From contig CAMKLG010000029.1 in NCBI GenBank assembly GCA_946413585.1, positions 1 through 34,922 on the forward strand: 34,922 bases of DNA, written 5' to 3'. The notes under the pieces were generated by a model. The model worked only from the letters and a program-made list of their open reading frames with translations, ran no database searches and was not told where the DNA came from. A program made the translations under genes and the position numbers. Positions 8,713 through 34,922 of this stretch are shown here, in pieces; within the stretch, counting starts at the first letter, position 1, and each line of letters starts with the position of its first letter. The stretch is from an uncultured Bacteroidales bacterium. Its GTDB lineage: Bacteria > Bacteroidota > Bacteroidia > Bacteroidales > WCHB1-69.

Positions 8713-10478
8713 TTTTCGTCTTCTATATAGATTTCTTTTTCTATGATTTCTGCGTCGGGCTGGTAGCGGTCGGTTATCCTCTCGGTGATGATATTGATGG
8801 TGAATTTCATCAGCTCGTAGATGACCCCGTGTTGCAGTCCTGGTTCAGCGTTGAGGTTCATAGTGAAGGAGTTGTTTTCGAGATAACAGGTTATGTTGTT
8901 GACGGGCAATGTGGCTCTATCGCCGAATAATGAACCTATGAAAATATTGGGATATACCCACAGGTAAGCGGGATGGGAGAGTAGTTCTTGCTTGAACGGC
9001 GTGTCCCTCCACTCTTGCGGATGCGACAACTGTTCCATAACGGAGAGGGTTTGGGCGTAGAAAAGCAGCCCGTCCTTGACCAACACGAAAGAGGTGTCAT
9101 ATCCATAACCCCACTCCCAAGTCTCATGATCCATCACTTTTTTCTTGGTGATAAGATGATACACCGTCCAGCCCTCTTTTTGGCTGACTGATAAAAATCT
9201 TCTGTTGGCGATGGAATCTATAGTGCGGTCGAAGGGCTCTAAAGAGTTGATATATTGTGCGAAATCGGTATAATCATCGTCTTTCAACATCTCTTCGGAG
9301 AAACCGGTTTCAATCTGCTTGACCTTCTCTTCTTGATCCTGGTAAAGCGAATCCAAAATGTGGTTGTGGGCGGTGATGTAATTCTCCAGCACGACTTGAA
9401 CAGAATCAGGATTCTCTACGATTGTGCCATACAAGGAAAGATCATTGTAATTCAGTGAAACGAAAAAAGGATTGTTTGTCAAAGATCTAAGAGAAGAGAA
9501 TTCGTTAAGATAAGGGGCGGCTATCTCGCCAGTACCTTCCATGGCGCAAGTCGCTAACAATATGGGATAATCGCCCATGTATGGGAGCAGTCGTTCGAGT
9601 TTTTCAGGGGCATAACGAAATATTTTATTGTTCCATAAATTTTTTCCATCATTACTATAGCGATATTCGCTGATGGAGGTGATACGGTCGTGGTGGACTT
9701 CCGCTTTGGAAAATACCTCTAAATTAAGTTGTTGAAAAGTATTGAGAGCGTCAGCTGGTAACTTGCTTCCTGCAAAAACCATAAAGATTTTAACAAAAGG
9801 ACTGAAGTGGTTGTAGGCCGTATAGCTGTTCATGCCACGGGCGACAATGTTTTTGGCGGTCTCACTGTTGGCAAATTGAGATTTACTCAGCTGTTCCCAT
9901 ATTTGAATTGGCGAGTCAATATGTGGTGCAAAGGAATCAGGATCAGATAAAGAGGATAAAATCTGGGTGTAGTAGTCTGAAAGGTCCGAGAGTGAGACAA
10001 TGCAGGCCACATCCGTTGTGCAAATCACCGCGTAAGGGATTTCGTTTGCTAGATTCAATGTCAAACAACGGATTTTCTGACCGTTAGAGAGTGTGAGCGT
10101 CTCAAATGGGGAGAAGGATTTGTCCAACAAACGTAGCGTTTTCTCGAAATTCTTTTCGTTGTTCAGAGGAATGAAATAATAGCGGGAATTGGCTGCTGCT
10201 ATCGAAGCGGTGAAGTCGATGCCCGTCTTGTTGTCGCGCTTCAACCAGCTTTGAACGAATTTTTTGGAGAATTTCAGGCTGTCGTAAAGCGGTTTTAGCA
10301 CATGGTTATGATGGAGGGCTTCCAACTCTGACACTCGTGCCATCGTGTCGAGGTTGATGATGTATAGAGAATAGCAACTGTCGGGCACATAATTGAGCAC
10401 GCGCTGATGGTAAGGCACCTGCGCAAACACGACCGTTGTTATAAGTGACATGATGACTGTTAATATTTTACGCTTCAT
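8709..10478 (-). CDS. Secreted protein of unknown function (589 residues)
   Basis: I do not recognise a named function. Starting at the ATG at 10478 gives an N-terminal signal peptide (MKRKILTVIMSLITTVVFAQ, cleavage after about residue 19). A start at 10505 would bury it behind nine residues, so I chose the shorter form. The mature part is a large soluble domain with no membrane segments. It begins with a pattern (VPDSCYSLYIINLDTMARVSEL) resembling the start of large Bacteroidetes periplasmic DUF3352/DUF4836-type proteins, but I cannot assign a family with certainty. No lipobox Cys follows the signal. It stands alone, convergent with hflX, with which it shares the CTAG stop overlap. A periplasmic or envelope role is inferred only from the signal peptide. 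Confidence 0.8.
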   Translation of the reverse strand: MKRKILTVIMSLITTVVFAQVPYHQRVLNYVPDSCYSLYIINLDTMARVSELEALHHNHVLKPLYDSLKFSKKFVQSWLKRDNKTGIDFTASIAAANSRYYFIPLNNEKNFEKTLRLLDKSFSPFETLTLSNGQKIRCLTLNLANEIPYAVICTTDVACIVSLSDLSDYYTQILSSLSDPDSFAPHIDSPIQIWEQLSKSQFANSETAKNIVARGMNSYTAYNHFSPFVKIFMVFAGSKLPADALNTFQQLNLEVFSKAEVHHDRITSISEYRYSNDGKNLWNNKIFRYAPEKLERLLPYMGDYPILLATCAMEGTGEIAAPYLNEFSSLRSLTNNPFFVSLNYNDLSLYGTIVENPDSVQVVLENYITAHNHILDSLYQDQEEKVKQIETGFSEEMLKDDDYTDFAQYINSLEPFDRTIDSIANRRFLSVSQKEGWTVYHLITKKKVMDHETWEWGYGYDTSFVLVKDGLLFYAQTLSVMEQLSHPQEWRDTPFKQELLSHPAYLWVYPNIFIGSLFGDRATLPVNNITCYLENNSFTMNLNAEPGLQHGVIYELMKFTINIITERITDRYQPDAEIIEKEIYIEDEN

Positions 10479-24185: not shown

Positions 24186-25388
24186 CTATTGTTCTAACAA
24201 CCAATCTAATACGTTTTGCTGCTTAATGCCATTGTGAAAAGTCACAGGCATGGTGTCCAAAGTAAGGATTGTTTTCGGATAATTATCCTTAATGGCTTGT
24301 AATGGCTTCAGTTCCCTTTGGAGCGTGGTGTTGTCAAGCACCGTTGCCGCCACTTGGTAATAAGCGACTTCCTGCATGTTTACCGTAACAAAATCGACTT
24401 CCAAAGCATCTGTCTTTCCCACATACACATGAGGATTGCGCCTCAGCAGCTCTAAATACACCACGTTTTCAAGCACTCGCCCATAATCTGTGTTTTTAGA
24501 ACCGAGAAGTGTATTGCGCAGCGCCACATCCACCAGATAGTATTTCTCCATTGTTTTTAACAGCTGGCGTCCCTTGATGTTGTAACGCTTAGCAGGATAA
24601 AGGATGAAACTTTGGCACAATGCAGACAGATATTTCTCAATGGTTTTCACATCCGCTTTCCGCCCCGAGGAGGTAAGCGTGTCGGCGATTTTTTTCACCG
24701 ACAAGGTGTTCCCTATGTTGTCGGCAAGGAAAGCCATCACATTCTCAAGCATCACGGCGTCACTTATCCTGTTGCGTTGCACCACATCTTTCAGTACGAT
24801 GGTGCTGTATATGCCTCTGAGATAATCATCTGTCAGCTGCTCGTCGCGTTCGAATGCCATCGCATACGGGAAAGAAGAGAAGGCGATGTAATCGGCGTAT
24901 TTCCTTTCCAAATTGTTCGTGTCACCAGTCGCGGAGACATATTCTTTGAACGAAAGCGGCAAAATCTGAATCTCCACATAACGTCCGGAAAGCAGCGTGG
25001 CGATCTCACTTGACAGCAAGTAAGCATTTGATCCCGTGATGTAGAGATCTAAGTTGTCCTTTACGAACAGGGCATCCACCACATCGGCATAATTCTCAAC
25101 GTGTTGGATCTCATCAAGAAAGACATAATGGGGGGCGTCTTTTGAAAGGCGTTGACAGATGTATTTATACAGCGTCTTGGCATCTCTCAACTCCACAAAA
25201 TCGTAATCCTCAAAATTGATGTTGATAATCTGCTCTTTTTGCACTCCAGACCGCATCAATTCCTGTTGGAACAGAGCCATCAGGGTACTTTTTCCACAGC
25301 GTCGCACACCCGTGATAACCTTGATGATTTTCTTGTCTCTCAAGGATTTAAGTCTCTCAATATACCGTTCGCGTTGTATGGTTTCCAT
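24186..25388 (-). CDS. AAA-type ATPase with DUF4143 C-terminal domain
   Basis: This 400-residue protein belongs to the AAA_14/DUF4143 family. Walker A is GVRRCGKST (27-35) and Walker B is YVFLDEIQ (about 88-95). An arginine/sensor region TGSNAYLLSSE follows at about residue 120. The DUF4143 half holds a winged-helix-like segment and the restriction-fold-like stretch NVVYLELLRRNPHVYVG...DALEVDFV. Members are abundant and often multi-copy in Bacteroidetes; their cellular role is poorly defined. It has its own predicted promoter and is separated by 394 bp from the downstream end of the modification operon, so I do not count it as a component. Its codon use and G+C look like the resident genome. 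Confidence 0.92.
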   Translation of the reverse strand: METIQRERYIERLKSLRDKKIIKVITGVRRCGKSTLMALFQQELMRSGVQKEQIININFEDYDFVELRDAKTLYKYICQRLSKDAPHYVFLDEIQHVENYADVVDALFVKDNLDLYITGSNAYLLSSEIATLLSGRYVEIQILPLSFKEYVSATGDTNNLERKYADYIAFSSFPYAMAFERDEQLTDDYLRGIYSTIVLKDVVQRNRISDAVMLENVMAFLADNIGNTLSVKKIADTLTSSGRKADVKTIEKYLSALCQSFILYPAKRYNIKGRQLLKTMEKYYLVDVALRNTLLGSKNTDYGRVLENVVYLELLRRNPHVYVGKTDALEVDFVTVNMQEVAYYQVAATVLDNTTLQRELKPLQAIKDNYPKTILTLDTMPVTFHNGIKQQNVLDWLLEQ

Positions 25389-25782: not shown

Positions 25783-26370
25783 TCAATCCAATGCTTCCGG
25801 CTCGTCATCCTCTTCACCTGCATCGACAGATGCAGCGAAAGCCATGAAAAGCTCAAGAAAGGCGGTTTCGCGGTAGAAATAGTTGGGATCGTCGGTGAGT
25901 ATGTCCTCCATGAAATGAAAGCCCCAATTGGCATATTCCTCCATGGTTTGCATCAGCATATCAACAGCTTTGCGGGAGGTTATGTCTCCCTTTTCCAAGG
26001 CGATGAAATCAATATCGGTGCGGGCGACCAAAGCCGTGAAGATGTATTCGCGCAGTTTGGGATAAGGTTTGCGCCCTTTGACTTTAACCTTGTCGGCATT
26101 CAAATCACCCCAATATTGTATTTGGTGGCCAAAATCTTTTATCTTTTGGCTGTCTTCTATCAATTTGCGCCGTTGGTTGAAATACAAGCCGATAAAAAAG
26201 GCGATGATATAAATTTCGTAACCTCCACCAAATATTTTGCCTCGATCCTCTCCTAAAGACGTGGCACCTCGCCGATAGTTACAGAAGTTTCCAATGATAC
26301 TGTCTTCGTATCTTTTTTCCCACTTGGGATTACGGGTGATCCAAAGATCATATAATTTTTCTGCTGCCAT
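25783..26370 (-). CDS. Unknown protein in the dndE position of the modification operon (195 residues)
   Basis: I do not recognise the family. The protein is soluble, with a glycine-rich segment RGKIFGGGYEIYIIAFFIGLYFNQRRK (about 43-69), a basic stretch KVKVKGRKPYPKLREYIF, and an acidic tail (GEEDDEPEALD). It starts 6 bp after the DndD-like gene and is the last gene of the operon. In canonical dndBCDE loci this place is taken by dndE, a small DNA-binding protein. This one is longer (195 versus about 115-130) and I cannot show homology. Position and spacing make it a component of the system by inference only. Confidence 0.8.
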   Translation of the reverse strand: MAAEKLYDLWITRNPKWEKRYEDSIIGNFCNYRRGATSLGEDRGKIFGGGYEIYIIAFFIGLYFNQRRKLIEDSQKIKDFGHQIQYWGDLNADKVKVKGRKPYPKLREYIFTALVARTDIDFIALEKGDITSRKAVDMLMQTMEEYANWGFHFMEDILTDDPNYFYRETAFLELFMAFAASVDAGEEDDEPEALD

Positions 26371-26376
26371 GATGAA

Positions 26377-28548
26377 CTATTTTATGCGTTTGATTATGGT
26401 TTGAATGGTTGACAGGTCTTTGTCGTTAAACGGCTCCACCTTCTCGATGCGATAAACAGAACAGGAAAGCTTGTTGATGGTGTCGAAGTCAAGTTGTTTC
26501 TCACCCGTTTGTTTGTCAACGTTGAGCAAATCCTTGGTGACGATAAGGCACTGTTTTTCAATTGTATCAATCACATTGTAGAATGTGTCCTCTTTGAAAC
26601 CGCCGAATGACGATGTTGGGGCATCGAAGATCAGCGGATAGTCCTGCTCGCGTTTCAAGGTCGTGATTTGGGAAATGGCAAACAGCACTGACATGTACAT
26701 GGTGGTTTTCAAGGCTCCGTTCGGATTCTCAATTCTGCCACCATTCATACTGTGAAGTTCAATGCGGGCGGAATTGTCGATAGTCTTACGGATGTGAATG
26801 ACCCCGTAGAAATCGTTTTTGTTCAGCTTAGCCAAATATTGGTTGGCGACCTCTTCCAACATTTGGAGGAAATTTCTGACATTTTGTTCCTTTGCGTTCA
26901 CAAATGCCTTCATAATTCGCTCAAAAGCGGTGTGAACACGCTGATAGACTTTCGTCATCGTACTTTCTGGCTCAAGTTTGGAGAGTCTGTCTTGGAGATT
27001 TGCTTTGTTTTCCTCCTCTATCTTCAATTTTTCATTCAACTCCACAGCACGTTTTTCCGCACGCCCTTTTGCTTCAAAAAAGCCTTTCCAATCTTTAATG
27101 TTCTTGTCCAGAATCTCAGCGCTCAGATTAGACTGCATGAGCAAATCGTTCATTTCATCGGTGAGCTCTTGAATCTGTTTGGTCACATCCGAAAGCTCCG
27201 TTTTGCGTTTTGTGATAAAATCCAAGCGGTCGGCGATAGTTGTTGAAATCCCTGCGATCTCCTGTTCTGTTTCGCCGCTTAACTTGATTTGGCGGGAATG
27301 AAGCTCATTGATGAAAGAATTGGGGAATAACGGCTGCTCTTCTTCCTCTTCGTTCGGCGGAGTTACCACTTGTGCAGAAATATTGGCGAGATATTCGTTC
27401 AGCTTTTGGCACATGAAATGATATGCCTCAGACCCTTTAGGTGCAGGACGACCACAGACTTTACAGATTTCATCATCTATCATTTCCTGCATCGTCTCCT
27501 TGTCCGGCAGGTTCCAAGGAAGAGGCACCGCATCGTTAGCAAGTTTCTGAATTTTGGAGATTGCTTCCCGCTCGCCTGCTTCTTTTGCCCGACGTTCAGT
27601 CTCTTGTTTTTCGAGTCTTCTTTTCTCTTTGCTTAATGCGGAGGCTTTTGCCGAAAACTCTTTTATTATTGGGAGAAAAGACCGGAGAATCCATGATTCA
27701 TCTAACAAATTTGTACTGTAATTACAAGAGGAAAGAGCTGACAACTTTGCTTTTTTCTCTTGCAACTCATGTATTCGGTCTTTTATATCTTGATATCGTT
27801 CTTGAGTCTCTTGATTTTTCTCGATTAATTCAATTTTGTCAGTGAAATCGGAAATAGATATCTCTTTTTCTTTCAATTCTTTCCGAATATCTTGAATTGA
27901 AACAGATACTAAATCAAGTTGTCTGTTGAGTTCTTTTGCTTGATTTGATACACGTTTATCGTTCTGCAATTCTTTGTTTGCTGCATTTGCCGATTTGTGT
28001 TCAAAATTAGATGTCATTTCGACCAGTTCATCGAATTGCTTAATGCCAGAGAAGGTGTCAACCAATGTTTTAAGTGCGGTTTCATTATCAAAAACATTAA
28101 GGTTGTTTTCCCCTTTAAATAGACAATATTTCCGAATAACAGGTTCGAAACATTGGTTTAGCATTACATCACCACGTGTCAACAAACGCTCTGAACCATC
28201 AATGGAATATCCATTAAATTTGAAATCTTTTATTCGGATAAAATCCTCTGAGACTTTTTCAAAAGTAAAAGATTTCTCAATTTCCTTCTCTCCATCATGT
28301 TCAAAAGTGATGTTCACAATAACGTCATCGCTTTGCCCAACTTCTAATTCTGATTTTCTTTTTTCGGAGATGTGGGTCAGTTGTTTGTCCTCACTTGCCG
28401 TTTTAAACAACCATTCCAATGCTTCAAATAATGTTGTTTTTCCATCACCATTATCACCGATAACCAATGTCAACCCTTTGGACAATGTAAGAGTATTATA
28501 GCCGTAGTAACTACGGAAATTTTTGATTTTAATATCCTTGATGATCAT
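26377..28548 (-). CDS. DndD-like SMC/RecF-type ATPase
   Basis: This 723-residue ATPase starts IKDIKIKNFRSYYG and has Walker A GDNGDGKTT (31-39). Long coiled coils follow, with a zinc-hook-like CKVC (362-365) at mid-protein. The C-terminal ATPase half has the Walker B strand YPLIFDAPTSSFGG (about 637-650). The catalytic Glu that normally follows the Walker B Asp is Ala here (FDAP), comparable to the DTP form of DndD. The ABC signature is degenerate (NPNGALKTT in place of SGGE). DndD supplies ATPase activity in DNA phosphorothioation. The start overlaps the 77-residue gene as ATGA. It could instead be a generic AAA_23 defence ATPase; the neighbouring DndC-like and DndB-like genes favour the DndD reading. 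Confidence 0.85.
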   Translation of the reverse strand: MIIKDIKIKNFRSYYGYNTLTLSKGLTLVIGDNGDGKTTLFEALEWLFKTASEDKQLTHISEKRKSELEVGQSDDVIVNITFEHDGEKEIEKSFTFEKVSEDFIRIKDFKFNGYSIDGSERLLTRGDVMLNQCFEPVIRKYCLFKGENNLNVFDNETALKTLVDTFSGIKQFDELVEMTSNFEHKSANAANKELQNDKRVSNQAKELNRQLDLVSVSIQDIRKELKEKEISISDFTDKIELIEKNQETQERYQDIKDRIHELQEKKAKLSALSSCNYSTNLLDESWILRSFLPIIKEFSAKASALSKEKRRLEKQETERRAKEAGEREAISKIQKLANDAVPLPWNLPDKETMQEMIDDEICKVCGRPAPKGSEAYHFMCQKLNEYLANISAQVVTPPNEEEEEQPLFPNSFINELHSRQIKLSGETEQEIAGISTTIADRLDFITKRKTELSDVTKQIQELTDEMNDLLMQSNLSAEILDKNIKDWKGFFEAKGRAEKRAVELNEKLKIEEENKANLQDRLSKLEPESTMTKVYQRVHTAFERIMKAFVNAKEQNVRNFLQMLEEVANQYLAKLNKNDFYGVIHIRKTIDNSARIELHSMNGGRIENPNGALKTTMYMSVLFAISQITTLKREQDYPLIFDAPTSSFGGFKEDTFYNVIDTIEKQCLIVTKDLLNVDKQTGEKQLDFDTINKLSCSVYRIEKVEPFNDKDLSTIQTIIKRIK

Positions 28549-28778
28549 AACTGCCGAATTAATTGGTTACTAACTTCGGTATATATCTCTTTCTCTGACA
28601 CTTTTTCTTCATGCCTTTCGATTATCGTAGCAATTGCCTTGATAATCGGGATGTCAGAATCCATGGCTTCGGCTATGGAATAGTAATCGTCGGGATCAAA
28701 ACCATAAATATCATACAGCTGTTTGTCATTCAATACAGCTTGTAATAATTTATCCTCATTTGTTTGATACATTTGCAT
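28545..28778 (-). CDS. Small acidic protein of unknown function (77 residues)
   Basis: This short soluble protein has 16 Asp/Glu against 7 Lys/Arg and no signal or membrane segment. Its N-terminal half contains a conserved-looking segment LYDIYGFDPDDYYSIAEAM; the C-terminal half is predicted helical (IPIIKAIATIIERHEEKVSEKEIYTEV). It sits between the helicase (2-bp gap) and the DndD-like gene (ATGA overlap). That spacing implies a real, translationally coupled gene. No family is recognised. A role as a small partner of the helicase or the ATPase is inferred from position. Confidence 0.8.
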   Translation of the reverse strand: MQMYQTNEDKLLQAVLNDKQLYDIYGFDPDDYYSIAEAMDSDIPIIKAIATIIERHEEKVSEKEIYTEVSNQLIRQL

Positions 28779-28780
28779 AA

Positions 28781-31051
28781 CTATTTGAAAATTGAAAGAT
28801 TATAATGGTTCAAAATATCAACTAATTCATTGTAAGTGTCATTAAGATTCTCGGAAAGAGAAGCAAAGTCTCTTACTCGGCATAATTCACTTTCTACAAG
28901 ATTCTTCTCCAATGTGTAGCATTCTTCATCAAACACATCGTCAGGAATAACAATGAGATCATGTATAATGGCAAATTGCTTATCTTTGTGTGTGCGTAAG
29001 ACACGTCCACGTCGTTGAATGAACTGACGTGGATTACCAGTACTTGCACAGAAAATAGCCAACTCACTTCGTGGGACATCGACACCTTCATCTAAACACT
29101 TCATAGACGTAAGTACATCAATGCTTCCTTCAGCAAAGCCTTTGAGCATAGCATCTCGATCAGTTGATTCAGAAGTGAACTGGCGAACAATGATGTGAGA
29201 ATCCATATCTCGAACAATGCGCGTAAAATCGTCAATCAGATGTTCTGTCTCTGGGTCAGATGCAATTGTGTCTGTCTTATCGAAAATGTCAGCTTCAAAA
29301 TCATCAGGTTTGTTGCCTTCTGGGACATAAACTAATGTGTATTTCAAACTGTTCTTTTCTGTCATACGTTGCTGAAGTATCTGTTTAAAAACGCCCAACT
29401 TGTTAGCAGCTTTATGAATGATTCGTTTTCGCTTCAACAAAAGCATTTTTAAGATTTCTTGGCTTTCGACATCTTGATACCCTATGACTTTTGCTATTTT
29501 TTTCGAAATATCCACATATTCATCCATTTCATTTTCAGTCAGCCTAACAACATGCGGATAATAGTAATAACGACAGAGAGCACCGTTTTCTATAGCCTCT
29601 GCCATAGAGTATTCGAAGGTGTAATGGTCATCACACCTGAAGAAATCCATCAATTTACGATTGCCACTGTCGTCAAATTGACGTTCCGGCGTGGCAGAAA
29701 GGCCTATTCTCCGTGAATATTTTATTTCAGGCAATCGATTGACCATCAGACCACCACCCATGTTGTGCGCTTCGTCTGCTATAAGCAGTAGCTTGTTTTT
29801 TGGAAATTGGTTTAGTTCTAAGAAAACATTGGAGCGAACAAACGATGCGTAGGTGGATATGATGATATAAGACAATTCTTTGTTGGCATTTGTCATCTCA
29901 AGCAAACGAAGATTAGCTACCGCAGACTTCCAATTACTGTATTTAGAACAAACCTTTATGATATTGTTGAAATTAAACTTCTTGCATTCAAGCTCCCATT
30001 GTTCAACAAGCGTTATAGTTGGAACCAGTATGATAGCTTTATAATACTTCTTTTGGTTATAAATTTCGAGCAAACAATTGAGCGAAGTGATGGTTTTTCC
30101 TGTACCTGTCGCCATCGCAAACAAGCCTTTCTGCTTGTTGTTTTTCCAATTCTCGAACGCTTGTTCCTGATAATCGCGCGGCCCAGATTCGTATGGGAAA
30201 CGGGGTTTGCCGAAGTCGATAGGCTCAACGGCTTTGCCTTGCTTCTTGATTTTCTCTATCTCGATTTCAACTTTGTTTTTGGCTTTCTCCAGTGCATTAA
30301 TCACAGATTTAGGTAACGATTTATCAGCAATATCCTGCTGCACGAACCGATATTCATCTTCCAGTAAATCTTTCAGTTCCTTGTTTTTAAACGATTCGGC
30401 AATATGAGTTTTCACTCTGTCAGTCGGGACAAAAACAACATTCTCATCTTTACCAGTAAACACAAGTTCAAATTCTCCATTGATTTTGTTTATTGTAGCA
30501 GACGCTGGATTGCCATCCCAATCGCAGAAAGCCGTAAGACTTTCGATATTGTCAATCAACGCCGACCGTGAAAAGTTGCAAGAGCCATCGAAGCCGACTT
30601 TATTTACGCCATCGCTGAAAATGCCAGTTTTAGTGTGAGAGATGCCGATGCCTGCTTTTGGCGCAATGATTTTTATCTCAAGTCGATTGTTACGAATGAG
30701 CCACGTAAGACACTCGAAAAAATGTGTGTCACGTTCTGACAACGTGTTTTTCAGTTTTTCAATGTCGGTAATGTCAAAAAACGGAATGGGTGTATTAAGT
30801 TCACCGTTGGCAATAGCAATTCTATCTTGCTCAGTAAGAATGTCGTTTACAATCAGATTCATTCGTCCACCATTATAGAGGAACGAAGCAAAACCATCCG
30901 CCAAAACATTGATGGCAGAAGAAGAGAAGAAGCCTAACATCAAATCAAACTGCGTGGCATTGCACAGGCAGTCAGAGAAGAAACCTATCGGCTCCCACTC
31001 TGTCCGCGATTTGAAATGGCGATGTGCTGGAAATGAGACTTCTTTAAGCAT
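28781..31051 (-). CDS. Superfamily 2 helicase with N-terminal phospholipase D-like nuclease domain
   Basis: A 756-residue fusion. The N-terminal domain has a PLD-like (HKD) active site: HTK (139-141) followed by GFDGSCNFS with Gly156, Ser157 and Asn159. One HKD half-site is visible, so a dimer would be needed for a complete site. The helicase core carries motif I ATGTGKT (314-320), motif II DEAH (426-429), motif III SATP (452-455), and motif VI QRRGRVLR (679-686), followed by a short C-terminal extension. PLD-helicases occur in several restriction and defence loci. Here it is the best candidate for the DNA-degrading effector. It starts 2 bp after the DGQHR gene and is followed after 2 bp by the 77-residue gene. 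Confidence 0.9.
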   Translation of the reverse strand: MLKEVSFPAHRHFKSRTEWEPIGFFSDCLCNATQFDLMLGFFSSSAINVLADGFASFLYNGGRMNLIVNDILTEQDRIAIANGELNTPIPFFDITDIEKLKNTLSERDTHFFECLTWLIRNNRLEIKIIAPKAGIGISHTKTGIFSDGVNKVGFDGSCNFSRSALIDNIESLTAFCDWDGNPASATINKINGEFELVFTGKDENVVFVPTDRVKTHIAESFKNKELKDLLEDEYRFVQQDIADKSLPKSVINALEKAKNKVEIEIEKIKKQGKAVEPIDFGKPRFPYESGPRDYQEQAFENWKNNKQKGLFAMATGTGKTITSLNCLLEIYNQKKYYKAIILVPTITLVEQWELECKKFNFNNIIKVCSKYSNWKSAVANLRLLEMTNANKELSYIIISTYASFVRSNVFLELNQFPKNKLLLIADEAHNMGGGLMVNRLPEIKYSRRIGLSATPERQFDDSGNRKLMDFFRCDDHYTFEYSMAEAIENGALCRYYYYPHVVRLTENEMDEYVDISKKIAKVIGYQDVESQEILKMLLLKRKRIIHKAANKLGVFKQILQQRMTEKNSLKYTLVYVPEGNKPDDFEADIFDKTDTIASDPETEHLIDDFTRIVRDMDSHIIVRQFTSESTDRDAMLKGFAEGSIDVLTSMKCLDEGVDVPRSELAIFCASTGNPRQFIQRRGRVLRTHKDKQFAIIHDLIVIPDDVFDEECYTLEKNLVESELCRVRDFASLSENLNDTYNELVDILNHYNLSIFK

Positions 31052-31053
31052 GT

Positions 31054-32310
31054 TTACAACGATATTTCTGATATTCTTCGTTCTGCTTCAGATAAATCAA
31101 TATTAAATATTGTTGCATACCTTTTTTTCATCTCATCCTTCTCCTTATCTGTCAAAAGATTGCCATCATACATGTTTATTAGTAGATATTTGACCAATGA
31201 TTGATTGCGCATTGCCATTTTTTTTGTCAATGGATTCCATAAAATATAATTCCAAGGTTCATTGGAGACAATTCTTTCCATATGAGCATAGTGATTAAGA
31301 ATGTCCCCATAAGAGACTGCATAATCAATTTGTTTTATTCTTGTTACGCTTTCTACAAAAGGCAGCAATCCAATAGGTCGGAAAAACAAATTCCCACCAT
31401 TGTTATTGGAACGAAATGATTCTGCAGCATTATTACTATTATCGTTTGTATATCTATTGATTTCAGGGAATATACTTCTCATGCAATCCCAGAAACAAAC
31501 CAATTCGGCTGTATATTCTTCAATAATCGCATCTGAAGGCCTATTTCTCAAATAGTCTTTCAATTGAGATTGACTATATTTCTTATGTTCTTTATTGATT
31601 AAATATGCGAGAAATATTTCTTTATTGCAATCATACAATGTCATCAAAGATGTGAAAGATTGTTTATCTTCTTTTGGTATCGACTTCGAATTGCTGACTT
31701 TAATTCTATTCTCCATGAAAAGAGGATAAGTTTCCAACAATTCACGTGTTACGATAGCCACTATATCATCTTCGTCAAGTATAATAATATCTCCTAAACG
31801 CACTGGTTTTACATATCTATTCAATGTGGAAAATATTCTTCTTGAACGTTCCATGCCTTCTGGTGTGTTACTATGCCCAATAAGCATGACATTTATTGTT
31901 TCTGTGGCTATTTCTGGTTTCTGAATAATAGCTGCTTTTATACCTTCAACACGATGTTGACCGTCAACAGGAAAAATTTTTTCCTGACCAGTAAATTCCA
32001 ACAACCCAACATTACTAAACTGCTCATTATTTAACTCATAACGTATTTCTGTCCATTTAGGATCCCCGTCGTAAACAGCCAAAACCAAACTATCAAAAAA
32101 ATGGTCATTTCGATTAACAATATAATCTTTGATTTTTACATAGTTATCGGTCAAAGAACGTTGAAGCACTTCTTTTAGCGAATTTGAAGTGTGTAATTCT
32201 GAATCAACCTTTTTGACCAAATCATGTATTTGTTGAAATGTCAAATTTGCAGAATAATAAATAGTTGTACCTATTTTTCCTCTTATTGCTGGTATTTTTA
32301 TAGCTTCCAT
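31054..32310 (-). CDS. DGQHR-domain protein, DndB family
   Basis: A 418-residue protein with the signature FPVDGQHRVEG (DGQHR at 116-120). Downstream it has the family pattern INVMLIGHSNTPEGMERSRRIFSTLNRYVKPV. DGQHR proteins include DndB, which regulates phosphorothioation genes in dnd loci, and the DpdB protein of the 7-deazaguanine DNA modification system. The fold is ParB/sulfiredoxin-like. This one is somewhat longer than typical DndB (about 360). It begins 2 bp after the GIY-YIG gene and ends 2 bp before the helicase. Its DNA is AT-rich compared with the core genes of the window. Regulatory or modification role inferred from family. Confidence 0.9.
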   Translation of the reverse strand: MEAIKIPAIRGKIGTTIYYSANLTFQQIHDLVKKVDSELHTSNSLKEVLQRSLTDNYVKIKDYIVNRNDHFFDSLVLAVYDGDPKWTEIRYELNNEQFSNVGLLEFTGQEKIFPVDGQHRVEGIKAAIIQKPEIATETINVMLIGHSNTPEGMERSRRIFSTLNRYVKPVRLGDIIILDEDDIVAIVTRELLETYPLFMENRIKVSNSKSIPKEDKQSFTSLMTLYDCNKEIFLAYLINKEHKKYSQSQLKDYLRNRPSDAIIEEYTAELVCFWDCMRSIFPEINRYTNDNSNNAAESFRSNNNGGNLFFRPIGLLPFVESVTRIKQIDYAVSYGDILNHYAHMERIVSNEPWNYILWNPLTKKMAMRNQSLVKYLLINMYDGNLLTDKEKDEMKKRYATIFNIDLSEAERRISEISL

Positions 32311-32312
32311 AA

Positions 32313-32837
32313 TTAAAACGCATTTGTTGTTGCTTGAACTTCTATTTTGTCTGGAATTTCAGAATTAAATGGAGGTCTAATTGCACGAATTAGAGTTGCT
32401 TCATCTCTATCAATTACATCATTATCTGTTTCAGGATAATAGCGATAAAACAAATAATCTTTCCAATATTTTTTCATTCTAACAATTTCTGTTCTTGAAT
32501 TATCAGAATCATACTCTTTAGCACGTTTACGGATGTACCGTTTCCCTTCAGAATAATGACATCTTCCTATATAAACAATATAGTTTTCAAAAAATGAAAG
32601 ATTAATCCCTTTCAGATAAAACATATATACACCTCCTGTATTCGTAGGTAAATTCTTAATATCCTCTGAAATACTTTCTCCCTCATAATACTTTATTTCT
32701 TTTGACCAATTATCTTCATTAATTATTGGATTATCATCATCAATTTTGTTTTCAATCCAATGTTTTGGATTGTGATAATAAATTATATCATATAACTTAT
32801 CCTCGTCGTTCAAATTCAAGAATGCATTTGCTCTCAT
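32313..32837 (-). CDS. GIY-YIG endonuclease-like protein
   Basis: The 174-residue protein carries a GIY-YIG domain. The GIY strand is GGVYMFYL (68-75), the YIG strand is IVYIGRC (87-93), and basic residues follow in YIRKRAKEY (101-109). The catalytic Glu is in DRDEATLIRAIRPPFN (about Glu146), and the closing PPFN (155-158) resembles the E...P.YN end of UvrC-type domains. All active-site features are present, so it is probably an active nuclease. An N-terminal extension of about 65 residues precedes the domain. G+C is low (14 of 60 bases in 32461-32520). It starts 6 bp after the DndC-like gene and ends 2 bp before the DGQHR gene. Confidence 0.85.
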   Translation of the reverse strand: MRANAFLNLNDEDKLYDIIYYHNPKHWIENKIDDDNPIINEDNWSKEIKYYEGESISEDIKNLPTNTGGVYMFYLKGINLSFFENYIVYIGRCHYSEGKRYIRKRAKEYDSDNSRTEIVRMKKYWKDYLFYRYYPETDNDVIDRDEATLIRAIRPPFNSEIPDKIEVQATTNAF

Positions 32838-32843
32838 ATTATT

Positions 32844-33944
32844 CTAAATAAAACAATTAGCACACATAATTTCATCACCTAACACATCCACAAGCGTTGT
32901 CCCTTTGTTTTGCTTGCGGTTCTCCTCTTGACGTTTGATAATATCGAGTTTTATTTGGCGCACACGTTCGGGCTTGCATAATTCAGCCAAACTCTCGTTT
33001 TGATTCCACGTATAGCCATCTTTTTCAAACTCCATAGCCTGCCGATATAAATCAGGGTGTTGCTCGTAGAGCCAAATCCATTCTATCTTCTGTTGGAAGA
33101 AACAGAAGTAGCATCCCGAACGGCTTCGAGAATAGGTTCCAGTTCTTCCGTCAACTTCAAATGGAATCTCTTCATAATATGCTGGAACACCAACGCCACT
33201 CTCGCGAAGCAATCGAAAGATGTCCTCTTTCACAAGCACATCTGTGTTGTCAAGCAGTGGGAAGTTGTCTAGTTTACCTACCGGGTAGTCTGTGGTTTTT
33301 AAGAAAGCAAAGACCACGTGATTAAAAAGCTTTATGTCAAAGTCCAACAAGGCATTCAGCTTTTTAGAAAAGTAAAAATGCTTTGATATTGGCTTCGAGG
33401 CAGTTCCCATAATCTCGTCTTTCATGAAGTTGTCGGGGCAAAACAAATCGTACAATGATACAAACTGCTCCAAGTTGTCATTATGTAACACTTTGTTGAT
33501 CACATCAAGGCTCCAAATGTTTCTTCTGAACGGGAACACCGCCTGAATATTGGGTTTTGAGGAAATGTAGCCATCCCTATCTTCATCTCCACGGATGCCG
33601 ACGTATGAGATAGCCATGTCATCGCCGACATACTTTTCAAATTCTGCCAATTTCATCTTTTGAGTACACCATCGCGCTTGCGGTGATGGAAGAAAACCAC
33701 CCATCGCTTTGAGGAAATGATGGAATGGGGTCGGTTCTGAACTACCTTCAGCTGCTCTTAACCTTACAATCTTTCCTAAATAGGTTTCAAGACGTCTGAT
33801 TAAATCTTCGGTTTCTTCCAACTCACACCCTGTATCTGAATTATAGTATTCAATTTTCAATGTTGGATACTTTTGCTTCAGATATATGGAAAGTGCTGCG
33901 CTGTCTTTTCCACCTGAAATACCTAATATGTGTCTGACATTCAT
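32844..33944 (-). CDS. DndC-like PAPS-reductase-family sulfurtransferase
   Basis: A 366-residue PP-loop ATP pyrophosphatase of the PAPS reductase family. It starts with HILGISGGKDSAAL (SGGKDS at 10-15), followed by YYNSDTGCELEE. Cys residues lie at 93 (RWCTQKMK), 278 and 281 (SGCYFC), and 361 and 364 at the C-terminus (CANC). DndC and SspD use the PP-loop to activate DNA and Cys-held sulfur/Fe-S chemistry to install phosphorothioate; the Cys pattern here would allow similar chemistry, which is an inference. An assimilatory PAPS or APS reductase is unlikely, given the length, the extra C-terminal CxxC and the DndB/DndD-like neighbours. Its start overlaps the TOPRIM-like gene as ATGA. No cysteine desulfurase (DndA) is present in the window. 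Confidence 0.88.
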   Translation of the reverse strand: MNVRHILGISGGKDSAALSIYLKQKYPTLKIEYYNSDTGCELEETEDLIRRLETYLGKIVRLRAAEGSSEPTPFHHFLKAMGGFLPSPQARWCTQKMKLAEFEKYVGDDMAISYVGIRGDEDRDGYISSKPNIQAVFPFRRNIWSLDVINKVLHNDNLEQFVSLYDLFCPDNFMKDEIMGTASKPISKHFYFSKKLNALLDFDIKLFNHVVFAFLKTTDYPVGKLDNFPLLDNTDVLVKEDIFRLLRESGVGVPAYYEEIPFEVDGRTGTYSRSRSGCYFCFFQQKIEWIWLYEQHPDLYRQAMEFEKDGYTWNQNESLAELCKPERVRQIKLDIIKRQEENRKQNKGTTLVDVLGDEIMCANCFI

Positions 33945-34639
33945 ATTTCTACACTTTCGTTGATCGCGTTTTTAATTGTGTCCAATTGCTCCATAAACTT
34001 TTGAAAACCGAAGTTATATTGGGCAATTTGGGGAATCTCCTTCCGTTTCATCTTCTTCAACACTTTCTGATACACGCTCAATGCTTCGGATGAATTCTTG
34101 TCTTTTTGAGGAATCCCTATGCCCTCTTTCTGAAGTTGTTGGTTCAGAATGTAGATACAGTTGGTTGTGGCGCAACGTTTTTTCGTGTCATTTTCATAAT
34201 AAAGCGGCAACAACCAACATTCCGTTTCGTTGAAACAAATGGCAAACAATATTCTGTCGGAATAAGCATCCCACACCTCACTACTGATGTTTTGTTTTAG
34301 GCGGGAGCATACTCTCTTATACAGTTCACTGTCAGAAACTCTTCTATTATGGTCGTCATAGATGTCCACATCGTAATGTTTCTGAGTGCAGGTGTCTGTG
34401 TCGATTTGAATGATAATATAGTCGTTCGTGACCATATTGTCGCTGATTACGTTGTCATTACAATGGTTGAGGACTTGAAGCCATCCTCCGTCGTCATCCT
34501 GCTTTTCTATACCATGAGATATTCTTGTTGGTGGTTGAATACGGTTCACGACCACATCGTCACCCAGATATCGGTTGATGATGTACGTGAGAATCTTCAA
34601 CTCAGACACTCCTTCACAAATCATACCTATTGTAACCAT
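33941..34639 (-). CDS. TOPRIM-like partner of an ABC-type ATPase (232 residues)
   Basis: With the start at 34639 the protein begins MVTIGMICEGVSE. A conserved Glu (E9) follows the first strand, and D80-x-D82 lies in IIIQIDTDTC. An FNETECWLLPLYY segment follows at about 150. This E...DxD layout fits a TOPRIM fold as in OLD nucleases, RloB and the AriB subunit of PARIS, but I assign it by pattern only. The start at 34639 is preferred over one at 34693 because AAAGG lies just upstream and the longer form would overlap the ATPase gene. It lies 11 bp after the ATPase gene and ends in an ATGA overlap with the DndC-like gene, which ties the pair to the modification operon. Confidence 0.75.
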   Translation of the reverse strand: MVTIGMICEGVSELKILTYIINRYLGDDVVVNRIQPPTRISHGIEKQDDDGGWLQVLNHCNDNVISDNMVTNDYIIIQIDTDTCTQKHYDVDIYDDHNRRVSDSELYKRVCSRLKQNISSEVWDAYSDRILFAICFNETECWLLPLYYENDTKKRCATTNCIYILNQQLQKEGIGIPQKDKNSSEALSVYQKVLKKMKRKEIPQIAQYNFGFQKFMEQLDTIKNAINESVEI

Positions 34640-34650
34640 AAGACCTTTGT

Positions 34651-34922
34651 TTAGAAATTGTCCGGAAGTCCTCCAATAAAACCTTTTTGCCATGCCTCAG
34701 AAAGCGGCATTGACATTTCGCCTTTCAGTACCACCCGATTCGTTTTGGTATAACCGTCAATCGAGCGTCGAACCACATGCAAACGGACATCATCATCGTA
34801 CAGATTCATGCCATCAAGTACCGCCGCGTTGTGCGTGGTGGCAATGATCTGCTTGTTATGTTTCTTAGCCAATTCAATAAGGCGGCGCGTCACTTCACGA
34901 CAAAGTTTAGGATTAAAAGCTG
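34651..34922 (-). CDS. ABC-type AAA ATPase, C-terminal part (5' end outside the window)
   Basis: Only the last 90 codons or so are present; the frame is open to the window edge. It begins in the region just after Walker B (AFNPKLCREVTRRL), then IIATTHNAAVLDG, where the His is the H-loop of ABC/RecF-type ATPases (AAA_21/OLD class). A C-terminal beta-rich tail follows (RLHVVRRSIDGYTKTNRVVL...). Such ATPases commonly stand directly before TOPRIM or other nuclease partners in anti-phage loci. Its stop is 11 bp upstream of the TOPRIM-like gene. The Walker A motif, full length and family must be read from sequence beyond this window. Confidence 0.85.
   Translation of the reverse strand, partial: AFNPKLCREVTRRLIELAKKHNKQIIATTHNAAVLDGMNLYDDDVRLHVVRRSIDGYTKTNRVVLKGEMSMPLSEAWQKGFIGGLPDNF

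Follow-up and report, generated by a model that had tools for sequence, protein, structure and literature searches.

The DNA analyzed here (the window; 34,922 bases) is the whole of contig C29 in the draft genome (87.8% complete, 5.6% contaminated) of an uncultured Bacteroidales bacterium, and a run of nine minus-strand genes occupies its positions 25783–34922. These genes probably form the 3′ part of an operon with the order sspB-sspC-(ATPase–TOPRIM-like)-sspD-(GIY–DGQHR)-pbeA-pbeB-pbeC-pbeD, in which a phosphorothioate (PT) mark would be combined with the PbeABCD restriction module and with a PT-dependent effector made up of a GIY-YIG-like nuclease and a DGQHR protein. Across related loci, the PT core is kept and cassettes between its genes are swapped, always at the same two borders, and the GIY-DGQHR pair is linked to PT genes in the samples taken. 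We tentatively propose, as a reading that falls somewhat short of probable, that this pair is an undescribed two-gene PT-sensing restriction module, a split counterpart of SspE and DndI with a GIY-YIG nuclease, which can be plugged into ssp or dnd systems (in Bacteroidota and Proteobacteria), and that Bacteroidales sspBCD-pbeABCD loci have fixed ports at which such modules are exchanged around one self mark.

SspBCD Modification Genes and the PbeABCD Restriction Module

A first-pass annotation, made from the letters of the window, had described the nine genes as tightly packed, and the open reading frames (ORFs) of the window bear this out: the intergenic gaps range from −4 to +11 bp, provided that the TOPRIM-like gene begins at the internal ATG at 34639, where its profile match starts. 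In the order of transcription, family scans identify the C-terminus of a PDC-M31A ATPase, PDC-M31B, SspD, a GIY-YIG-like protein, a DndB/DGQHR protein, PbeA, a 77-residue protein, a PbeC-like ATPase, and a 195-residue protein. The ATPase gene is truncated because the window ends at the contig end. The order of the core genes recurs in dozens of genomes, which excludes a chance arrangement. DndFGH and SspE are absent from the window, as the annotation had noted, and in the genome as a whole the SspE model yields no more than partial matches (best 45 bits).

The third gene (32844–33944, minus strand) had been taken for a DndC-like 3′-phosphoadenosine 5′-phosphosulfate (PAPS) reductase. Its product, a PAPS-reductase-like ATP pyrophosphatase of the PP-loop type, scores 290 bits against the PADLOC model of SspD versus 22 bits against that of DndC, and reaches 19.6 bits with the NCBIfam DndC equivalog, whose cut-off is 290. 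We therefore rejected the name DndC and identify the gene as sspD; a sequence search of solved structures with SspD returned no credible relative. To survey related loci, we scanned contigs picked on SspD, taking the best 80 of 194 relatives and a second copy in the same genome (L085, on contig C51), or 81 loci in all. This choice of the top matches to SspD makes the counts lean towards close relatives, and two further samples, selected on the GIY protein and on Pbe, were drawn to offset this lean. Upstream, a family of ∼1075 residues is present in 75 of the 81 loci and one of ∼290 residues in 74; the single representative scored from each is SspC (1208 bits) and SspB (303 bits; DUF4007 271 bits), respectively.

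In the genome of the window itself, two sspB-sspC pairs lie on contigs C90 and C33, each at a contig end or no more than 240 bases from it. Past sspC, C90 continues with the N-terminal part of an ATPase from the same family as the C-terminal fragment in the window, and this fragment aligns with the C-termini of seven longer copies in relatives. The position of the sspBC pairs near contig ends and the entry of C90 into the ATPase N-terminus make it likely that this genome holds two operons split by the assembly. Since most of the 81 loci have sspB and sspC upstream and the same genome holds two sspBC pairs near contig ends, the system is very likely sspBCD-pbeABCD. It is not self-contained in the window, as had been supposed, given that sspB and sspC are found on other contigs. 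The genome also encodes two cysteine desulfurase homologues at other sites (104 and 88 bits), which makes a sulfur supply from such an enzyme plausible. SspB is reported as a nickase (PMC12707154, PMC7464106), and the human-microbiome matches to ssp genes include Prevotella and Bacteroides species (PMC7464106).

The last four genes do not belong to a rearranged dndBCDE core but are the published PbeABCD module in its published order. The PLD-helicase recognized by the annotation is PbeA (28781–31051, minus strand; 756 residues; PADLOC PbeA 1112 bits), in which an HKD/PLD nuclease-like domain is fused to a superfamily 2 (SF2) helicase. It scores 412 bits with TIGR04095 (cut-off 600), and its PLD match falls under the Pfam cut-off. 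The PLD motif residues H139 and K141 are present in 76 of 77 aligned rows, the remaining row being gapped at this point, and the Walker A motif and DEAH/DECH box are retained in the alignment. The 77-residue protein is PbeB (28545–28778, minus strand), placed by its position between pbeA and pbeC, and its family occurs in 72 of the 81 loci. The 723-residue ATP-binding cassette (ABC) ATPase (26377–28548, minus strand) had been called DndD-like, a name that we rejected, PbeC being its best PADLOC match (75 bits); it carries a CxxC motif, CKVC, in the middle part of the translation. The 195-residue protein (25783–26370, minus strand) is PbeD, a partner of PbeC and a DndE homologue with a DndE-like fold. 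Searches of solved structures with the PbeD profile found no credible relative, and library scans (Pfam, PADLOC, NCBIfam) gave no credible match to the GIY, 77-residue, or 195-residue proteins.

PbeA follows SspD in 76 of the 81 loci; in four of the other five, the gene next to sspD belongs to the SspE family, and the fifth is cut there by a contig border. In the Pbe-selected sample, drawn from 393 genomes of the order, 13 match PbeA at an E value of 1e-60 or better, including the genome of the window. Seven of the 12 others have Ssp genes nearby (L101, L162–L166, L169; convergent with Pbe in L165 and L166), and one has dndCDE (L167). L170 carries neither SspD nor DndC, its PbeA-like gene adjoining a DndD-like ATPase gene, and the remaining three are truncated by contig ends (L161, L168, L171). 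Two of the contigs in this sample (L162, L163) are apparently the same as those of L020 and L079 in the SspD-picked set. In the Pbe-selected sample, Pbe accompanies mainly Ssp. Genes of the sspBCD-pbeABCD core travel together; those of the two cassettes described below do not travel with it as a unit.

Cassettes Are Exchanged at Two Gene Borders

The annotation had counted the ATPase/TOPRIM-like and GIY/DndB-like pairs as fixed members of one nine-gene system. We rejected this reading: both pairs are exchangeable cassettes, the first at the sspC-sspD border (slot 1), which is empty in 61 of 75 loci, and the second at the sspD-pbeA border (slot 2), which is empty in 43 of 76. Filled copies of slot 2 contain GIY and DGQHR genes (8 loci), a double-HATPase trio (7), a DUF262 gene with a kinase gene (5, one with an extra ORF), SspE (4), the families f37, f31, and f38 (3), or other genes (6), and those of slot 1 contain PDC-M31 genes (7, in one case the ATPase alone), YhcG-type nucleases (4), or others (3). 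In L045, from Segatella baroniae B14, a strain of rumen origin, sspBCD-pbeABCD is present and both slots are empty. In the 81 loci, GIY and DGQHR always occur together; of the 12 pairs, eight occupy slot 2, three come after pbeD, and one follows SspE. The pair does not strictly exclude SspE, as one locus (L068) carries both.

Close pairs of loci display the exchange directly. L003 and the second copy of the genome studied here share SspD, PbeA, PbeC, and PbeD at 98, 97, 97, and 96% identity, with the double-HATPase trio in slot 2 of the former versus GIY and DGQHR in the latter. Between L035 and L036, the same four proteins are 97, 95, 100, and 95% identical, and the contents of both slots differ. 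In each of these pairs, homology breaks near the sspD stop and the pbeA start. The two copies in the genome of the window have cores that are 91–98% identical, but their GIY proteins share 56% and their DGQHR proteins 64% identity. The GIY (GC content 0.286) and DGQHR (0.322) genes also differ in composition from sspD (0.413) and pbeA (0.398).

On a quick tree of 73 rows, including the window, built from two core proteins that themselves recombine, the slot-2 labels require 21 changes, against a minimum possible of 6; 200 shuffles averaged 30.8 changes, and no shuffle gave a count as low. The eight GIY-DGQHR rows require six changes, five of them forced by the starred branches, with 9 of 500 shuffles as low. 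The labels are therefore clustered, yet often changing. Homing by the GIY nuclease was rejected as the driver of exchange, given that 25 of the 33 filled copies of slot 2 hold no recognized GIY gene.

The GIY-DGQHR Pair Is Linked to Phosphorothioation Genes

GIY profiles were searched against three overlapping sets of genomes, drawn from the order (393 genomes), the phylum (395), and the class (395). Matches above 40 bits were obtained in eight genomes besides that of the window, and in all eight a DGQHR gene lies directly downstream on the same strand. Matches of ∼20–30 bits, many of them in frames of ∼600 or 270–300 residues, were excluded from this tally; the one ∼600-residue frame checked (L120) is UvrC, and in L106, a weak GIY match of the 270–300-residue type, DGQHR, Ssp, and Pbe were not matched in a scan that did not include the Dnd profiles. 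PT genes are found near the pair in all eight genomes, namely sspBCD or sspCD in five (L101, L102, L103, L105, L158) and dndCD in three (L104, L159, L160). Their arrangements vary: the pair is convergent with sspBCD in L103, follows pbeABCD and points towards sspBCD in L102, and comes directly after sspD in L105 and L158, where no Pbe or SspE match was found within the retrieved stretch. In L104 (5726–12512), the order is dndC-dndD-GIY-DGQHR, followed by a DndE-HerA fusion (PF08870, 43 bits) and close to ribosomal protein genes; the DndC and DndD of this locus exceed the NCBIfam cut-offs.

The same association is seen on plasmids. Among 72,556 plasmid records, searches with the GIY protein of L107 and with that of L109 retrieve the same five, with an adjoining DGQHR match in five of five, and PT genes lie near the pair in all four records examined, the near twin Rhizobium K15/93 having been left out. 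A Roseobacter litoralis plasmid has the pair with sspABCD by annotation; two near-identical Rhizobium plasmids have it with sspFGH, modification genes being unmatched in the stretch; and the Rhizobium NXC14 plasmid (L108) has it with dndBCDE and a cysteine desulfurase gene. In a Salmonella record retrieved via DGQHR (L110), the pair and a DndI-like DUF262-DUF1524 gene, which PADLOC calls Orf5, adjoin dndBCDE. Canonical dndB is annotated in both L108 and L110 in addition to the DGQHR gene, which therefore does not just encode the regulator of the dnd system. A search of E. coli genomes with the Salmonella GIY-DGQHR stretch found no match.

Sequence Features of the GIY and DGQHR Proteins

The GIY-YIG-like nuclease gene (32313–32837, minus strand), the first of the slot-2 cassette, encodes 174 residues and was identified by conserved motif residues: GxY, YxG, R105, and E146 are present in 18 of 18 alignment rows and N158 in at least 90%. 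Pfam GIY-YIG does not match the window protein; the relative in L105 passes the cut-off (26.7 versus 22.6 bits), and the other relatives tested fall below it or are unmatched. The DGQHR protein (31054–32310, minus strand), encoded by the second gene and assigned to the ParB/Srx superfamily, is DndB-like, as the annotation had it; PF14072 matches at 110 bits (cut-off 29), and the DndB equivalog TIGR03233 is missed (76 versus 328 bits). All 24 alignment rows, the window included, contain the DGQHR motif, and at least 23 contain QR and FxxxN. QR, DGQHR, and FxxxN are described as three motifs common to GmrS (DUF262) and the DGQHR domain (PMC4619093). Pfam scans matched neither DUF262 nor HNH domains in the pair, and searches of solved structures with the GIY and DGQHR profiles gave no credible relative. 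In SspE and DndI, a DUF262 ParB-like NTPase domain with a DGQQR motif senses PT and controls a fused HNH nuclease (PMC9646914, PMC11662687).

A Model for the Locus and Its Alternatives

In the model that we favor, the nickase SspB, the ATPase SspC, and the ATP pyrophosphatase SspD, together with a cysteine desulfurase encoded elsewhere, would place PT marks on host DNA. The DndD/DndE-like pair PbeCD would scan DNA, and PbeA with PbeB would block DNA that lacks PT marks. The DGQHR protein may act as a ParB/Srx-type NTPase that reads the PT mark and controls the GIY-YIG nuclease as a separate protein, similar to the control that SspE and DndI exert on their fused HNH nuclease through an NTPase domain, and the ATPase–TOPRIM-like pair may be an independent guard of the PARIS/OLD type. 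Gene identities, their conserved order in relatives, the exchange of cassettes, and the linkage of GIY-DGQHR to PT genes in the samples taken are observed; the join of sspBC to the window contig, the PT chemistry and its sensing, the nuclease action, the guard role, and phage defense are inferred.

Several points weigh against this model. The sspBC genes are absent from the window contig, and their linkage to it rests on relatives and contig ends. Within the reported experiments, PbeABCD did not cleave viral DNA (Xiong 2019; PMC6459918), and with haloarchaeal queries pbeA-D were found in few genera of the human microbiome (Sun 2020; PMC7464106). The slot-2 cassette is dispensable, as the many loci with an empty slot demonstrate. 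Only some first-look candidates were scored per genome, so distant or unpaired GIY relatives may have been missed. Motifs and weak profile matches are the basis for assigning the GIY-YIG fold. A role in transcription regulation is reported for DndB, and profile-profile comparison places the DGQHR protein near canonical DndB (E value of 4e-21, with a two-sequence profile), with no significant match to SspE or DUF262 (probability ∼5%). We prefer an effector over a regulator only moderately, because the DGQHR profile links to DndB and not to SspE/DUF262.

It is accordingly conceivable, if unlikely, that GIY-DGQHR is an accessory of modification, with the DGQHR protein, like DndB, repressing or limiting PT, and the GIY protein nicking DNA to assist sulfur insertion or repair. 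Besides the strong profile match to canonical DndB, itself reported as an ATP-dependent negative regulator (PMC10853773), such a role would suit L104, L159, and L160, where the pair lies within or just after dndCD operons and another dndB is unmatched in the stretch (L160 ends there). However, the loci with an annotated canonical dndB as well, the nickase role already reported for SspB, and the location of the pair in the slot that SspE occupies elsewhere all speak against such a role, as does L107, where the pair adjoins the restriction module sspFGH and no modification gene was matched in 19 kb.

Unrelated passenger modules for defense or suicide, for which the operon would be a convenient home, could also account for GIY-DGQHR and the other cassettes. 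Frequent cassette change on the tree and the AT-richer composition of the GIY-DGQHR genes compared with the core would suit passengers, and stand-alone URI nucleases near Dnd genes have been proposed as suicide back-ups (Rakesh et al.). Passengers should, however, also occur away from PT genes, and the presence of such genes in eight of eight genomes and four of four examined plasmid records renders this explanation improbable for GIY-DGQHR. For the ATPase–TOPRIM-like pair, it is a good reading. The proposal made in the first-pass annotation, a new sulfur system of DndC, DndB, and DndD homologues with interleaved nucleases, draws on real similarities (of PbeC and PbeD to DndD and DndE, and of the DGQHR protein to DndB), but it is left barely credible by a PP-loop enzyme that fits SspD rather than DndC and that in relatives is preceded by SspB and SspC, the partners usual for SspD. 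What stands of that interpretation is a likely sulfur-based modification-restriction system with a PLD-helicase, a GIY-YIG-like nuclease, and a DndB-like protein; its naming, self-containment, and fixed membership do not.

Relation to Known Systems

The sspBCD-pbeABCD locus, with its PT-dependent effector as we interpret it, resembles SspABCD-SspE and SspABCD-SspFGH in having SspB, SspC, and SspD homologues in the same order, and SspE itself is found in slot 2 of four loci and in the place of Pbe in four others. It differs in its restriction partner, which here is PbeABCD with GIY-DGQHR, and in that the window contains no sspA cysteine desulfurase gene; the 81 loci were not searched for sspA. 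With DndCDEA-PbeABCD it shares the order PbeA-B-C-D and a DndE-like PbeD, whereas the modification module here is SspBCD and not DndCDEA. The GIY-DGQHR pair has in common with SspE, DndI, and GmrSD (ParB/Srx NTPase with HNH) a DGQ(H/Q)R-motif protein coupled to a nuclease, located near PT genes in the case of SspE and DndI, and GmrSD is known in both split and fused forms (PMC4619093). In contrast to these, the nuclease here is GIY-YIG-like and separate, and the motif protein belongs to the DndB branch; the likeness to SspE and DndI is one of proposed mechanism only. GIY-YIG-type nucleases beside PT genes are also known from the URI family, which Rakesh et al. 2024 describe in the vicinity of Dnd genes; in the accessible text these stand alone at operon borders, whereas the nuclease here is paired with DGQHR inside the operon.

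PADLOC models of Ssp and Pbe already name parts of the locus, and the makers of these models probably saw such loci, since the best PbeA model fits the window protein very well. The kind of system is an established one; what appears new is the combination, together with the GIY-DGQHR module. No description of sspBCD-pbeABCD or of the GIY-DGQHR pair was found in the accessible text of the literature searched, with supplements and the founding paper of Ssp (Xiong 2020) lying outside it. According to Wang et al. 2021, 2,211 of 2,678 sspBCD sets lack sspFGH or sspE, and further restriction partners are one of two possible reasons given (PMC8092258); Xiong et al. 2019 counted 320 of 553 pbeAC sets without dndCD, 155 of these near methylases (PMC6459918). 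The sspBCD-pbeABCD system joins these two sets of published orphans, in which sspBCD lacks a known restriction partner and pbeAC lacks dndCD, and GIY-DGQHR is an additional candidate restriction partner. DndCD and PbeAC are reported to co-evolve only weakly, which a single PT mark common to exchangeable effectors could help explain.

Slot-1 Genes, Other Cassettes, and Neighboring Genes

The slot-1 cassette of the window comprises the C-terminal 89 codons of the cut AAA_15/AAA_21-type ATPase gene (34651–34922, minus strand; PADLOC PDC-M31A 76 bits) and its TOPRIM-like partner (33941–34639, minus strand, with an alternative ORF start at 34693; PDC-M31B 45 bits, the TOPRIM label having been given by eye). 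A full-length relative of the ATPase in L036 scores 221 bits as PDC-M31A, in keeping with a pair of ATPase and TOPRIM-like proteins. PARIS (AriA/AriB) and PDC-M31 share this pairing, and AriA is the second-best PADLOC match of the full-length relative; the pair here scores best as PDC-M31. To our knowledge, PDC-M31 is a predicted candidate without a tested function.

Three other cassettes recur. The double-HATPase trio (slot 2 of L003, L008, L011, L020, L025, L070, and L077) includes a receiver-like protein, recognized by eye, and a 221-residue protein of unknown type; PADLOC has one weak match to its first gene and none to the other two. A cassette of f37 (unknown, ∼545 residues), f31 (AAA, weak BrxC/D match), and f38 (277 residues, PIN-like by eye) occupies slot 2 of L023, L079, L081, and L169 and has no PADLOC matches. 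The cassette of DUF262 and a Ser/Thr kinase, with a DGQQR motif, is located in slot 2 of L006, L010, L014, L030, and L035 and after pbeD in L037, L056, and L058.

The GIY-DGQHR cassette (31054–32837) has a GC content of 0.29–0.32 compared with 0.466 in positions 1–25388 of the window. Comparison of L085 on contig C51 with window positions 25783–33944 reveals tracts of 100% DNA identity, from the 3′ part of pbeA to pbeB and from the 3′ part of pbeC to pbeD, between stretches with identity down to 53%; the tracts look like gene conversion, or like strain mixing in the draft. The stretch from Salmonella Infantis SARB27 (L110, 8188–11887) also holds genes of a conjugative element. In L034, where the sspC family was not found, a methyltransferase-HIT domain fusion that is weakly ThsC-like (9098–9976) lies directly upstream of sspD. 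On the same strand as the nine genes, 394 bp past pbeD, the window encodes an AAA_14/DUF4143 ATPase (24186–25388; PADLOC PDC-S01, 526 bits), a family that occurs in 9 of the 81 related loci.

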